42,330 nucleotides of DNA from Agrococcus sp. (lineage in GTDB: Bacteria > Actinomycetota > Actinomycetes > Actinomycetales > Microbacteriaceae), in assembly GCA_031179215.1 (NCBI GenBank), contig JAPSIA010000012.1, forward strand, positions 1 through 42,330, given 5' to 3'. Shown one piece after another: positions 8,973 to 23,846 of the stretch. Each line of letters opens with the position of its first letter. The first letter of the stretch is position 1. Both the position numbers and the translations under genes were made by a program. The notes under the pieces are model-generated. The model searched no databases and had not been told where the DNA came from. It saw nothing but the letters and a program-made list of their open reading frames with translations.

Positions 8973-9557
8973 ATGCGCGAGCGCCACGGCGATGCGGACG
9001 AGAGCGGCACCGTGCCCGAGGGACGCGGTCGGCTCGACCTCGGCCTGCTGTTCACCGACGGGCTCCCGCAGGAGGAGGACGCCGTGGGCTACAAGGGCGC
9101 GATCGCGGCGGACGCCGCGGGCATCACCTACCGGCAGCTCGACTACTGGGCGCGCACGGGACTCGTCGAGCCGTCGATCCGCCCCGCGAAGGGCTCGGGC
9201 AGCCAGCGCCTCTACTCGTTCCGCGACATCCTCGTGCTCAAGCTCGTCAAGCGACTGCTCGACACCGGCATCTCGCTCCAGCAGATCCGCGTCGCGATCC
9301 AGCAGCTGCACGACGCCGGCGTGCGCGACCTGACGCAGACGACGCTCATCTCCGACGGCGCGAGCGTCTACCTGTGCACGTCGAGCGACGAGGTCATCGA
9401 CCTCCTCGGCCGCGGCCAGGGCGTGTTCGGCATCGCGGTCGGCAAGGTGCTGCGCGAGGTCGAGACGCAGCTCATCGAGCTCGAGGTGACCCCCGTCGAG
9501 CAGCAGCCGATCGACGAGCTCGCCGCTCGTCGCGCGCGCCGCAGCCGCACCGCCTGA
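8973..9557 (+). CDS. MerR-family transcriptional regulator (Rv1830 type)
   Basis: 194 residues. A short acidic N-terminal tail precedes the MerR winged helix (about residues 35-105) with the elements AAGITYRQLDYWARTGLVEP and GSQRLYSFRDILVLKLVKRLLDTG; the remainder holds DLTQTTLISDGASVYLC and RGQGVFGIAVGKVLREVE, characteristic of Rv1830 orthologues. Function is not firmly known. The ATG at 8973 has GAAGGGA in front of it; the in-frame GTG at 8913 would put the inverted repeat inside the coding sequence and is rejected. The conserved actinobacterial order garA–ftsR–x–merR is kept except that no gene lies between the two regulators here (Rv1829 lies there in M. tuberculosis). Confidence 0.87.
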   Translation: MRERHGDADESGTVPEGRGRLDLGLLFTDGLPQEEDAVGYKGAIAADAAGITYRQLDYWARTGLVEPSIRPAKGSGSQRLYSFRDILVLKLVKRLLDTGISLQQIRVAIQQLHDAGVRDLTQTTLISDGASVYLCTSSDEVIDLLGRGQGVFGIAVGKVLREVETQLIELEVTPVEQQPIDELAARRARRSRTA

Positions 9558-9587
9558 GCCGATCGGCCCGGTCCGAGCAGCCTCGTC

Positions 9588-9804
9588 GCGAAGCGTGCGC
9601 TGCGGCTCGCGCTCCCGTCCCGCGGTGCCTGACGCGCGCAGCTGAGCCTCGCCTCGCGCGTGCCGCGCCACGGCACGCACGCCTTCGGCCTCGCGCACGC
9701 CGTCGACGTCGTCGGCATCGACGAGCAGCAAGTCGGCCCCGCGCTCGGCGCGCTCGCTCGTCGCGGTCGAGCCGCCCGAGCGCTTCGCCGGCTTCGGCCG
9801 CCCG
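9588..9804 (+). pseudogene. Decayed gene fragment, possibly from an M23-peptidase-like protein
   Basis: Reading from 9588 gives ALRLALPSRG, an in-frame TGA (9630-9632), then RVPRHGTHAFGLAHAVDVVG with GIDE after it (to about 9735); after a +1 shift the frame starting at 9748 continues ARSLVAVEPPERFAGFGRP up to 9804. The pieces together resemble a run I recall from actinobacterial M23-type proteins (RVPSHGT, FG, AIDxVGVDE, EPPERFxGFGRP), broken by one stop and one frameshift. There is no start codon region, and the remnant ends exactly where the 20-bp repeat array begins. The family match is from memory and modest in strength. This is the only other content of the 9558-10168 gap. Confidence 0.4.
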
Positions 9805-10000
9805 AGTGGCGCCGTGCGTGATCGAGTGGCGTCGTGCGTGATCGAGTGGCGCCGTGCGTGATCGAGTGGCGCCGTGCGCGATCGAGTGGCGCCGTGCGCG
9901 ATCGAGTGGCGCCGTGCGTGATCGAGTGGCGCCGTGCGTGATCGAGTGGCGCCGTGCGCGATCGAGTGGCGCCGTGCGTGATCGAGTGGCGCCGTGCGTG
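9801..10000 (+). repeat. Tandem array A: ten copies of a 20-bp unit
   Basis: Ten head-to-tail copies of ATCGAGTGGCGCCGTGCGTG begin at 9801, 9821, 9841 and so on to 9981, each exactly 20 bp, varying only at single positions (CC for AT in copy 1, GTC for GCC in copy 2, GCGCG for GCGTG in several). Because 20 is not a multiple of 3 and every frame stays open, the array is not coding. It lies between converging genes (the MerR gene and parA) and is followed by units in the opposite orientation. Confidence 0.97.
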
Positions 10001-10120
10001 ATCAAGCGCGGGGGCCGCCACTCGAGCGTGGGGGCCGCCACTCGAGCGCGGGGGCCGCCACTCGAGCGCGGGGGCCGCCACTCGAGCGCGGGGGCCGCCA
10101 CTCGATCGCGGGGGCCGCCA
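10001..10120 (-). repeat. Tandem array B: six 20-bp units in inverted orientation to array A
   Basis: Six 20-bp units, CTCGAGCGCGGGGGCCGCCA, start at 10001, 10021, 10041, 10061, 10081 and 10101; the first is a hybrid beginning ATCAAG. Read on the minus strand each unit is CTCGAGTGGCG followed by GCCCCCGCG, so it shares TCGAGTGGCG with array A but on the other strand, with a different second half. Spacing stays exactly 20 bp through the switch point. A transcript across both arrays could pair the shared 10-base cores many times. Sequence 10121-10168 leads directly to the parA stop. Confidence 0.95.
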
Positions 10121-10168
10121 CGCGACCCCGCGAGCGGAGACCGTTGCGCCGCCGAGCGCGGCCGCCTC

Positions 10169-11101
10169 CTACTGCTTGCCGGGCTCGGGCTCGCTCGCGT
10201 CGCCCTTGGCGGCCTCGGCCTCGGCGGCCGCGGCCTCCTCGAGCTCGGCAGCCGCCGTCGCGTCGACCGCGGCGGTCGGCGCGGGCACCTTGCGGCCCGA
10301 CGCCGCCTCGTCGCCGGCGCGGCCGGCGGAGGTGAGCACGGTCTGCAGCAGCTCGTCGAACTGCAGTGCCATCTCCTGCGCACCCTCGCCCGGCCACACG
10401 TGCAGGGGACGCGCGGCGCCCTGCGCTTGCTGCATCGAGGTGCGCTCGGGCAGCACCGTCTCGAGCACGAGCGGACCGAACATGTCCTTGAGCTCCTGGA
10501 TGCGGTACTGGTGCTCGAGCGACTGCGGCCGCGCGCGGTTGACGACGATGCCGAGCGGCTGCAGGCGCGGGCTGAGCCCGCGACGGATCTCCTCGATCGC
10601 GCGCAGCGCGCGGTCGGCGGCCGCGACCGAGAACAGGCCGGGCTCGGTGACGACGAGCACGCGATCGGAGGCCGCCCACGCCGTGCGCGTCAGCGCGTTG
10701 AGCGACGGGGCGCAGTCGACCAGCACGAGGTCGTAGTCGTTCTCGACGGTCGTGAGCGCCGTCTCGAGCTTCCAGATGTCCTTGATCGTCGGGTGCGGCC
10801 CGTCGAAGTTGATGGCCGAGGGGCTGCCGATGAGCACGTCGATCGTGCCGCCGTGTCCCTGCGTCCAGCCCGAGGGCGAGATCGCCTGCTGCACGACCTT
10901 GTCCTTCGGGTTCGAGAGCACATCGGCGATGTTGAGCCGGCCCTCGATCTCGATGTCCATGCCGGTCGAGGCATCGGACTGCGGGTCGAGGTCGACCACC
11001 AGCGTGCGGAGGCCCTTCGCGAATGCGGCGGAGGCGAGACCGAGCGTCACCGTGGTCTTGCCGACGCCGCCCTTGAGCGAGCTGATCGAGAGTACGTGCA
11101 C
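10169..11101 (-). CDS. ParA/MinD-family ATPase
   Basis: 310 residues. The deviant Walker A motif with signature lysine (LKGGVGKTT) begins about residue 9, followed by LVVDLDPQSDAST (switch I region) and LVLVDCAPSL (Walker B). These ATPases dimerise on DNA and position chromosomes, plasmids or protein complexes. The last 65 residues are an Ala/Glu-rich low-complexity tail. No parB or parS is visible nearby and the gene is single, so it is an orphan ParA rather than the chromosomal segregation protein, perhaps like the division-linked ParA-type proteins of Corynebacterium; this is a guess. I chose GTG 11101 (start VHVLSISSLKGG) as it sits eight bases after a -10 box; the frame is open to 11146. 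Confidence 0.85.
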   Translation of the reverse strand: MHVLSISSLKGGVGKTTVTLGLASAAFAKGLRTLVVDLDPQSDASTGMDIEIEGRLNIADVLSNPKDKVVQQAISPSGWTQGHGGTIDVLIGSPSAINFDGPHPTIKDIWKLETALTTVENDYDLVLVDCAPSLNALTRTAWAASDRVLVVTEPGLFSVAAADRALRAIEEIRRGLSPRLQPLGIVVNRARPQSLEHQYRIQELKDMFGPLVLETVLPERTSMQQAQGAARPLHVWPGEGAQEMALQFDELLQTVLTSAGRAGDEAASGRKVPAPTAAVDATAAAELEEAAAAEAEAAKGDASEPEPGKQ

Positions 11102-11109
11102 GGCGGCCA

Positions 11110-11128
11110 AGCCTACGCCACTAGATTG
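11110..11128. promoter_or_regulatory. Divergent promoter region between parA and pyc
   Basis: On the minus strand TAGGCT (11115-11110) ends eight bases before the parA GTG, which has no Shine-Dalgarno. On the plus strand TAGATT (11123-11128) is a -10 candidate for pyc, which instead has a leader with GGAGGG before its ATG at 11164. Confidence 0.45.
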
Positions 11129-11163
11129 AGTCGGACGCGCCGCCACACCCGGAGGGTTCCTGC

Positions 11164-21267: not shown

Positions 21268-21660
21268 GTGATGCACGACGCTGCGAGACACGACTCCGGG
21301 GCCGAGGACACCGCGACGAGCGGCTCGGCGACGCACGGGACCGAGTGGCTGACGGTGCCCGACCTCGTCGACATCCTCGGCGAGCCGGTCGGCCGCATCC
21401 GTCGCCTCATCGAGGAGCACCGCTTGCCTGCCACGCGCCGCAACGGACCGCTCCAGGTGCCCGCCGCCGTGCTGCGCGACGGCGAGCCGATGTCGGAGGT
21501 GCGCGGCACGCTGCTCGTGCTCCTCGACCTCGGCTTCACCGAGGACGAGGCGATCGACTGGCTGCTCGGTGAGGACGAGACGCTCGGCGCGACGCCGATC
21601 GACGCGCTGCGCCAGGGCCGCAAGGCCGAGGTGCGGCGCGTCGCGCAGACGCTCGGCTGA
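21268..21660 (+). CDS. Rv2175c-family DNA-binding protein, probable PknL substrate
   Basis: 130 residues. The N-terminal 25 residues are a flexible Ser/Thr/Ala-rich tail (candidate phosphorylation sites T14, T16), then a winged helix-turn-helix around WLTVPDLVDILGEPVGRIRR and LIEEHRLPATRRNGPLQVPA, and a C-terminal helical part with LLVLLDLGFTEDEAIDWLLG. In M. tuberculosis, Rv2175c binds DNA and PknL phosphorylates a threonine in its N-terminal tail, which abolishes binding. Gene order here (divergent from pknL) is the same. GTG 21268 is chosen because of the leaderless -10 box; ATG 21271 directly follows and may be used instead. Confidence 0.85.
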   Translation: MMHDAARHDSGAEDTATSGSATHGTEWLTVPDLVDILGEPVGRIRRLIEEHRLPATRRNGPLQVPAAVLRDGEPMSEVRGTLLVLLDLGFTEDEAIDWLLGEDETLGATPIDALRQGRKAEVRRVAQTLG

Positions 21661-21718: not shown

Positions 21719-22096
21719 CCCGCACGAGGCGGCCGCTTCGTGCGGGCCGTGGCGACCGGATGGTGCAGGTGCGGTCAGGCGAGCTGCACGAGGTGGCCGC
21801 TTCCCGCGGGCCGTGGCGGCCGCATGGTGCAGGTGCGGTCAGGCGAGCTGCACGGAGTGGCCGCTCCGCGCGGACTTTGGCGGCCGTTGATGCAGGTGCG
21901 GTCGGGCGAGCTGCACGAGGTGGCGGCTTCGTGCGGGCCGTGGCGGCCGGATGGTGCAGGTGCGGTCGGGCGAGCTGCACGAGGTGGCGGCTTCGTGCGG
22001 GCCGTGGCGACCGGATGGTGCAGGTGCGGTCAGGCGAGCTGCACGAGGTGGCCGCTTCCCGCGAGCCGTGGCGGCCGAGTGGTGCAGGCGCGCAGA
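21719..22096. repeat. Tandem array of a 64-bp unit, about six copies
   Basis: A 5'-truncated copy (21719-21761), five full copies beginning at 21762, 21826, 21889, 21953 and 22017, and a 3' partial copy (22081-22096) are head to tail; the unit is 64 bp (63 once) with a few substitutions. Each unit contains two inverted repeats with 15-base loops: GTGCAG/CTGCAC and GGCCGC/GCGGCC. The truncated first copy adds a 9-bp stem CCCGCACGA (21719-21727) with TCGTGCGGG (21738-21746). A 64-bp unit shifts frame at every copy, so it is not coding. It fills the gap between two converging genes. Bases 21661-21718 and 22097-22127 show nothing further. Confidence 0.95.
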
Positions 22097-22127: not shown

Positions 22128-23240
22128 CTAGCGGTCGCGGTTCGCGACCGTGTCGGCGAGCCGCTCGAGCTCGAGCACGGCCGAGCGCGAGAGCTCGCCC
22201 TCGTGGAGCGATTCGAGCGCCTTGCCGACGGCGCGGTCGATGAGCGCCTCGAGGCGCTGCGGCGCCTCGGATCGCTGGATCGCGTCCTGCAGGATCGCGA
22301 TCTGCCGGTCGTCGAGCTCGCGATCGCCGAGCAGCTCGTCGAGCATCGTGCGCACGCCGGGGGAGAGCCGCTGCCGGGCGATCTCGATGAGCACGGTGCG
22401 CTTGCCCTCGCGCAGGTCGTCGCCGGCGGGCTTGCCCGTCACCGCGGGGTCGCCGAAGACGCCCAGGAGGTCGTCGCGCATCTGGAAGGCGACGCCGACC
22501 GGCAAGCCGTAGCCCGCGAGCGCGTCGAGCTGCGCCGCGTCGCCGCCCGCGAGCAGCGCGCCGAGCGTGAGCGGCGCCTCGACGGAGTACTTCGCCGACT
22601 TGTAGACGGCGACGGTGTGCGCGCGGTCGAGCAGCGCGCCCGGCTCCTGCCGGATCCACGCGGCCTCCTCGAGCACGTCGAGGTACTGGCCGAAGGTGAC
22701 CTCCTCGCGCATGCGCCGGTAGGCGTCGTGCACGGCGTCGCCGTGCGCGGTGGCGCGGCACGCGCGCAGCATGCGGTCGTCGGCCCAGTTCAGCAGCAGG
22801 TCGCCGACGAGCACGGCGGCGTGCTCTCCCCACGCTGCGGCCTGGCCCGCCCACTCGGCGCCGCGGTGCATGCCCTCGAGCGCGCGGTGCATCGACGGCT
22901 GGCCCCTGCGGGTGTCGGAGCGGTCGATGATGTCGTCGTGCACGAGCGCCGCGGCGTGGAAGAGCTCGATCGCCGTCGCGACCCCGACGACGTCGGCCCA
23001 CGCCGGATCCTGCTCGGTGCCGGCGGTATGGGGGGCGTCGGGCCGTGAGGCGGTGACGGCGTGCCAGCCCCACAGCACGAAGGCGCTGCGGACCCGCTTG
23101 CCGCCCGAGACCATCTCGCGCACGAGGCGCAGCAGGGGAGCGGCGTCGCCGGAGATCTCGCGCAGCGCGAGCTCGCGCTCGTCGAGGTACTCGAGGATCG
23201 AGGCCTCCACGGCCATGGCGAAGCGCTGCTGTGCTGACAC
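22128..23240 (-). CDS. Polyprenyl (geranylgeranyl-type) diphosphate synthase
   Basis: 370 residues of the trans-isoprenyl diphosphate synthase family, similar to IdsA. It elongates allylic diphosphates with isopentenyl diphosphate, supplying chains for quinones, carotenoids or polyprenyl carriers. The first aspartate-rich motif is DDIID (102-106) in VHDDIIDRSDTRRG; the second region is QMRDDLLGVFGD (Asp256, Asp257). GGKRVR (47-52) binds isopentenyl diphosphate. Product length cannot be read reliably. I chose GTG 23240 since TAGCAT on the minus strand ends seven bases upstream (leaderless); the frame is open to 23288. In M. tuberculosis a related gene (idsA2, Rv2173) also sits next to Rv2175c. 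Confidence 0.88.
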   Translation of the reverse strand: MSAQQRFAMAVEASILEYLDERELALREISGDAAPLLRLVREMVSGGKRVRSAFVLWGWHAVTASRPDAPHTAGTEQDPAWADVVGVATAIELFHAAALVHDDIIDRSDTRRGQPSMHRALEGMHRGAEWAGQAAAWGEHAAVLVGDLLLNWADDRMLRACRATAHGDAVHDAYRRMREEVTFGQYLDVLEEAAWIRQEPGALLDRAHTVAVYKSAKYSVEAPLTLGALLAGGDAAQLDALAGYGLPVGVAFQMRDDLLGVFGDPAVTGKPAGDDLREGKRTVLIEIARQRLSPGVRTMLDELLGDRELDDRQIAILQDAIQRSEAPQRLEALIDRAVGKALESLHEGELSRSAVLELERLADTVANRDR

Positions 23241-23719: not shown

Positions 23720-23781
23720 AGACCTCGCGCTCGACGAGCGCGCGTCCGCCGAGGGGCCACGGCAGTAGATCGCGCCCGCCT

Positions 23782-23843
23782 CCACGGCGCTCCACCCCCG
23801 CCTCCACTCCGCTCCACCACTTCCCTCCACCACTCCGCTCCAC
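23782..23843 (-). repeat. Cluster of MraZ-box-like GTGG repeats in reverse orientation
   Basis: On the minus strand GTGG (plus strand CCAC) occurs at 23782, 23792, 23804, 23814, 23817, 23827, 23830 and 23840, most as GTGGAG. Four pairs are spaced exactly 10 bp (23782/23792, 23804/23814, 23817/23827, 23830/23840), the spacing of MraZ boxes. From 23804 the sequence can also be read as three 13-bp repeats. It lies 180-260 bp upstream of the three forward boxes next to mraZ and before a strong terminator. Binding by MraZ is a prediction. Confidence 0.55.
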
Positions 23844-23846
23844 CCA

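Follow-up and report, generated by a model that had tools for sequence, protein, structure and literature searches.

Dispersed head-to-head repeat arrays in Agrococcus and the Vsr-like nuclease gene enclosed by one array pair

Between the genes for a MerR-type regulator and a ParA/MinD-type ATPase of an Agrococcus genome lies a block of sixteen 20-bp repeats that changes strand part of the way along, and we were interested in what this block is and whether it is peculiar to that gap. The window, as used here, is the whole stretch of DNA analysed (42,330 nucleotides), which is the entire contig C130 of its own genome, G000 (2.56 Mb, 231 contigs, 88% complete). An earlier reading of its letters, here called the sequence-only reading, had suggested that it might be a two-way terminator, a protein-binding scaffold or a replication/recombination product. 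We favour another answer, to which we assign a probability of about 0.62: the block would be a member of a family of dispersed head-to-head arrays, with its unit serving as the site that a chromosomally encoded Vsr-like/EDxHD-type nuclease recognises, which would explain a repeat that is otherwise an unnamed oddity of one gap.

Anatomy of the array between merR and parA

Direct reading of positions 9803-10124 gave 20-bp units, ten in plus and then six in minus orientation, as had been claimed, and this was confirmed by the core positions and by Tandem Repeats Finder (Table 1). The ten plus cores (CGAGTGGCG) are located at 9803, 9823 and onwards to 9983 and the six minus cores at 10016 to 10116, in both cases in 20-bp steps; Tandem Repeats Finder scores were 374 for 9803-10003 and 221 for 10005-10125. 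The first plus unit starts with CCGAGTGGCG, the last minus core has diverged to CGCCACGCG, and the unit previously called a hybrid is the first minus unit (10003-10022). All units are contiguous and non-palindromic, with inversion only between the half-arrays, and as their second halves recur within a half-array, the unique spacers of a CRISPR array are missing. Homology to M23 peptidase stops no more than about 10 bp from the start of the array, as seen from comparison with G002 and G017 (Pfam Peptidase_M23 for the G017 counterpart, E 4.7e-9).

Table 1. Features around the array, in positions of the window.
Feature	Position	Strand	Remark
MerR-type regulator gene, left neighbour	8973..9557 (start approximate)	+	
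Decayed M23-peptidase gene remnant (gene start)	9558..9802	+	open at same place in G002, G017
Half-array, ten plus units	9803..10002	+	unit CGAGTGGCGCCGTGCGYGAT
Half-array, six minus units	10003..10124	−	reverse complement CGAGTGGCGGCCCCCGCGCT; last unit diverged
ParA/MinD-type ATPase gene, right neighbour, convergent	10169..11146 (start approximate; stop 10169)	−	

The 20-bp phase had also been said to persist through the switch of strand. This is true for the grid of units, which continues, but not for the cores, as the first minus core lies 32-33 bp past the last plus core, a shift of about 12 bp. In G000 the switch offset differs at the eight remaining two-sided loci, so that a preserved phase is not a general property; among 28 two-sided loci checked, the offset was constant in G019 only. 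The suspicion of an assembly artefact could be dropped, since relatives assembled as single contigs carry such arrays, among them G003 with a run of 42 identical 20-bp units (L084, 3041-3880). Two other repeats occur in the window, namely about 5.8 units of 64 bp at 21722-22092 (TRF score 560) between convergent genes (21268-21660 on the plus and 22128-23216 on the minus strand), and, at 23775-23844 between two plus-strand genes, C-rich repeats with tandem units of 13 and 22 bp.

A dispersed family with a fixed order of strands

A search for unit and core in the window's own and in related genomes, as the sequence-only reading had recommended, showed that the element belongs to a family of dispersed repeats. 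In G000, the pattern GAGTGGCG-N12-GAGTGGCG was counted 45+37 times, compared to 0+0 when read backwards, whereas the single core (54+48) exceeds its backward control (48+39) only slightly. With the lone core near the control level and the pairs far above it, it is the 20-bp pairing that is special. At least 12 array loci, the window included, were found in G000; arrays were present in 11 of 15 further stretches examined there, and L013, L014, L020 and L022 had lone cores only. Pairs of GAGTGGCG were detected in 13 of 24 genomes of the genus (backward control: 1 pair in total) and in 8 of 299 sampled genomes of the family, four of which belong to the genus; the other four had one pair each, not above the backward control of that sample (6 pairs).

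Requiring cores 20 bp apart, we counted 43 array loci in G000, G003, G016 and G019, of which 15 are one-sided and 28 two-sided, and every two-sided array runs plus then minus (28/28, none in the opposite order). According to a home-made gene caller, the genes around these 43 rows are convergent in 21 cases, tandem in 20 and divergent in one, and the remaining row is at a contig edge (the nuclease site described below takes two rows per genome); neighbouring gene pairs over these stretches as a whole amount to 83 ++, 64 --, 48 +- and 47 -+. Placement between convergent genes only was rejected on account of the 20 tandem rows. The arrays are intergenic and chiefly close to gene 3' ends, and the gaps they occupy mostly differ between species. 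The gap between parA and merR itself contains arrays of other cores, plain hairpins or almost nothing in other species. The lack of repeats in related strains, which had been named as evidence against a real element, was thus encountered in part at this gap, but most of those genomes do carry the family elsewhere. The G009 gap (L053) is occupied by another repeat, whose units are of the GAGTGTCGACTTC type and lie in either orientation.

A transcript of the array had been proposed to form a ladder of paired cores. Folding of the RNA indeed predicted a strong structure (MFE -232.5 kcal/mol, z -6.0), but the pairing bears no sign of selection. In 30 two-sided loci of G000, G003 and G019 (G016 had too few and was excluded), the likeness of plus and minus halves was 0.512, 0.532 and 0.441 within the same locus vs 0.541, 0.572 and 0.451 between different loci (permutation p 0.90, 0.97 and 0.74, respectively), and as same-locus halves are no more alike than different-locus halves, the ladder does not look selected. 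Core conservation in the half-array comparison is circular, because core positions were used for selection; with the first eight positions excluded, the likeness of units within a half-array was 0.68 in G000, 0.67-0.81 in G003 and 0.46-0.50 in G019. The switch offset is the same (7 mod 20) at each of the 12 two-sided loci of G019 (L062-L073), and their centres are alike in either orientation, with a mean best identity of 0.73 compared to 0.40 for shuffled sequence and 0.45 for five G000 centres. From this shared offset and centre, the two-sided loci of G019 look like dispersed copies of one element. Their common centre is unlike other species.

A nuclease gene enclosed by arrays at a constant site

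In G000, G003, G016 and G019 alike, one array pair, consisting of two inward half-arrays, encloses a nuclease-like gene. The G000 gene (G000:C180:24659-25537) encodes a Vsr-like protein (DUF559, EDxHD-type) of about 293 aa. Pfam searches led to MTES_1575 below and DUF559 just above the cut-off and to no transposase model, NCBIfam gave nothing at its cut-off, and matches to a defence library were weak, as were those of some of 18 homologs to AbiEi models. In the PDB, the nuclease profile matched 3hrl at E 6e-4 and, at E 0.009, 3r3p ('Mobile intron protein'), which is I-Bth0305I, an EDxHD homing endonuclease. The 18 homologs all share E232, H237 and D247, and nearly all of them D234; conserved E, D, H and D residues together with the sequence similarity fit the EDxHD/Vsr-type superfamily, and we read these four positions as its motif. 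Judged from dN/dS values of 0.13-0.25 in six pairs, the gene is under purifying selection.

The gene order, with names taken from Pfam, is pyruvate kinase, ANTAR regulator, nuclease, thioesterase (minus strand) and DNA polymerase I in 16 genomes. Regulator and thioesterase also flank the nuclease in G009 and G017, giving 18 of the 19 nuclease-bearing genomes, and the exception is G010, where the thioesterase is on one side and a contig end on the other. When 39 array loci of four species were compared, the nuclease site alone recurred in every species; neighbouring genes were also common to three further locus pairs, in one case on both sides. The enzyme gene beside the repeats is thus single-copy and vertically inherited at a fixed site, with paralogs at other sites. 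Carriage by mobile elements was rejected, as a relative was found in just 4 records out of 72,556 for plasmids and in one out of 50,697 for phages, in each case below 40% identity.

Joint presence and absence of nuclease and arrays

Nineteen of the 24 genus genomes have the nuclease gene at this site, and all 19 have 20-bp array pairs, 9 to 113 per genome for GAGTGGCG and GANYGGYCA summed; these are upper values, as the GANYGGYCA pattern may register a single array twice, once per strand (backward control: 8 in 24 genomes). Plain arrays on both sides of the gene were seen in 15 of the 19 (G000, G001, G002, G003, G004, G007, G009, G011, G013, G015, G016, G017, G018, G019 and G021), an array on one side and a contig end on the other in G010, and irregular or decayed repeats in G008, G014 and G023. 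The site is empty in G005, G006, G012, G020 and G022, with a gap of 16-216 bp between regulator and thioesterase, and these five genomes had 0 pairs for both patterns. Completeness is only 65, 78 and 86% for three of these five; G006 is a single contig, 99% complete, and falls within the array-bearing clade. On a parA tree the distribution needs three changes, which are forced by well-supported branches. The chance of such co-occurrence would be 1 in 42,504 if the 24 genomes were independent, which as relatives they are not. Three genomes speak against a link between nuclease and arrays: G004 has a broken nuclease and yet 59 pairs, G014 has 9 pairs, few in view of controls of up to 4 per genome, and the empty-site genome G020 contains further DUF559 copies accompanied by repeats of 31-32 bp. 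As arrays are found in the species of the genus that keep the array-framed gene, arrays and nuclease probably work as a pair.

Nuclease homologs outside the genus

The nuclease profile covered 58 named loci, 44 of them outside Agrococcus, and clear two-sided inward tandem arrays were found at just 2 of these 44, in Humibacillus xanthopallidus (32-bp unit) and Microbacterium kunmingense (21-bp unit). The Humibacillus homolog has 33% identity. As predicted, its flank unit recurs genome-wide, with 105+71 = 176 pairs at 32 bp and 0 in the control (up to 2 mismatches), and the rule thus carries over to another family. Among the matches listed, seven clusters with both strands close together, including the nuclease site, run plus then minus. 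Away from the nuclease site, seven stretches were read, and in each of them the distance from a stop codon to the first core downstream is 3-32 bp. Extra matches on the other strand appeared at 2 mismatches in three of eight Humibacillus stretches, as the core resembles its own complement. The M. kunmingense unit gave 12 matches, five of them away from the nuclease site. The surroundings of 46 homologs (two from A. jejuensis) were richer in inverted 9-mers than those of 103 control genes (p 9e-5, or 0.02 once direct repeats had been subtracted), with a strong excess in only 5 of the 46. A distant homolog of Desertimonas flava (L224) has copies of TCTGCTGGCG on one side and of the reverse complement on the other.

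How the arrays may be maintained

These observations can be brought together if the N-terminal part of the nuclease, to which the weak AbiEi-like matches belong, binds cores of the GAGTGGC type, all from the same face of the helix. Cores are spaced at about two turns (20 bp) and in relatives at about three (30-32 bp), and the spacings of 20-21 and 30-32 bp may stem from co-operative binding at whole turns of the helix. The nuclease part may then nick or cut at or near arrays, and repair from other arrays would spread, lengthen and homogenise them. Copies would survive where they are least harmful, past gene 3' ends, and the host would retain the nuclease by vertical descent, as it does RAYT transposases with their REPINs. 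Among the earlier proposals, the protein-binding scaffold and the recombination product fare best and are partly supported because of the shared core, the whole-turn spacing and the close association with the array-framed nuclease gene.

If the hairpin were the function, with the arrays kept as bidirectional terminators or stabilisers of mRNA 3' ends and the nuclease incidental, one would expect the strong predicted fold of the window array, the 21 of 43 rows between convergent and the single one between divergent genes, and the seven Humibacillus stretches with arrays starting so shortly behind a stop codon. We consider this unlikely, as the halves of a locus do not match each other better than those of other loci, 20 rows lie between tandem genes, and the longest T run within the window array is 1, so that the U run of an intrinsic terminator is missing there; it also leaves the 28/28 order and the joint loss with the nuclease unexplained. 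The two-way terminator of the sequence-only reading, supported by fold and 3'-end location but not by matched pairing within loci, may still be a side role of the arrays.

Rather less probable is the binding of another host protein in chromosome architecture or segregation, with the nuclease gene merely sitting in one array. A spacing of about two helical turns and the parA-like gene near the window array would suit such a protein, but not the nuclease site as the sole site common to the four species compared, the lack of arrays where that site is empty, or the transfer of the rule to another family. For ParB or iteron sites in particular, one or a few at the origin or the partition locus would be expected instead of at least 12 loci in G000, and the parA gap of most other species is without a GAGTGGCG array. 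Neutral growth of tandem units in gaps through slippage during replication, with no protein devoted to it, could account for the likeness of units within a half-array and for up to 42 identical units in a row; we regard it as very improbable, as it fails on one core at a dozen places, on the 28/28 order and on the joint loss with the nuclease. Recognition of the unit by the array-framed nuclease is thus the reading that we retain.

Comparison with known enzyme–repeat systems

Clusters of REP elements known as BIMEs are extragenic, lie near gene ends in both orientations and are built of palindromes; the Agrococcus arrays are likewise extragenic, near gene ends and present in both orientations, but their units are not palindromic. 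In PDB 3r3p (I-Bth0305I) the nuclease part has its likeness among the EDxHD homing endonucleases, but the Agrococcus gene is located outside an intron at one chromosomal site, with its repeats dispersed. Homing genes promote their own transfer into alleles that lack them, and sites empty of the nuclease do occur in five Agrococcus species. In the literature searched by title and abstract, preprints not being covered as such, nothing joined DUF559/Vsr-type nucleases to dispersed tandem arrays. A preprint is said to have possibly proposed a link of Vsr-type endonucleases with direct-repeat tracts. EDxHD homing enzymes are described as binding long targets (PMC3943268). A DUF559 domain is also common to Caulobacter VsrA, reported with a PD-(D/E)XK-type fold; VsrA differs in being tied to a cytosine methyltransferase, and repeat arrays are not mentioned in the part of that account available to us (PMC12907096).

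The type of partnership is already known from RAYTs, described as single-copy, vertically inherited enzyme genes with dispersed extragenic repeats (PMC8049555), and REP/REPIN repeats, described as short palindromes (PMC3733652). One vertically inherited enzyme gene with a dispersed extragenic repeat population is common to both systems. They differ in the enzyme, which is Vsr/DUF559-like in the case of the array-framed gene, to which alone this comparison applies, and an HUH tyrosine transposase in RAYT, and in the repeats, which are tandem head-to-head 20-mers in Agrococcus and not palindromes of 20-40 nt. By analogy, arrays and nuclease would work like RAYT/REPIN but lack two of its defining features, the transposase and the palindrome, and our best reading is that of a functional counterpart with another nuclease and another repeat type. 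If so, a common domain-of-unknown-function nuclease family of Actinobacteria would gain a role, the keeping of a nuclease with a dispersed repeat population would seem to have arisen more than once in bacteria, and the genus would offer a chance to follow birth, growth, homogenisation and loss of arrays between close species. We would give even odds to the broader proposal of a widespread actinobacterial class, a non-transposase counterpart of RAYT/REPIN, in which domesticated Vsr/EDxHD-type nucleases each maintain their own head-to-head arrays at two- or three-turn spacing while core and specificity drift together.

Core types and distant homologs in the genus

Different species have different array cores, and these changes are usually, though not invariably, matched in the flanks of the nuclease. 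These flanks have GAGTGGCG in most species, GAGTGGCCA/GACTGGCCA in G001 and G015, GAG[CT]GGTCA in G004, G009 and G018, and GATTGGCCA in G007, and genome-wide core counts mostly follow them. Two genomes do not fit: G016 has GAGTGGCG beside the nuclease, yet 16 such pairs vs 97 of the other type, and G018 has the other type beside the nuclease, yet 43 GAGTGGCG pairs vs 32. More distant homologs of the nuclease occur at further sites in the genus, several of which are common to different species. A scan found no repeat segment in 9 of 20 stretches with such paralogs (L149, L150, L152, L153, L157, L158, L160, L161 and L164), nor in L167, although irregular repeats were visible by eye in L152 and L161. 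Repeats spaced at 30-32 bp, about three helical turns, were seen on one or both sides of the distant homologs in L155, L159, L162, L163 and L165.
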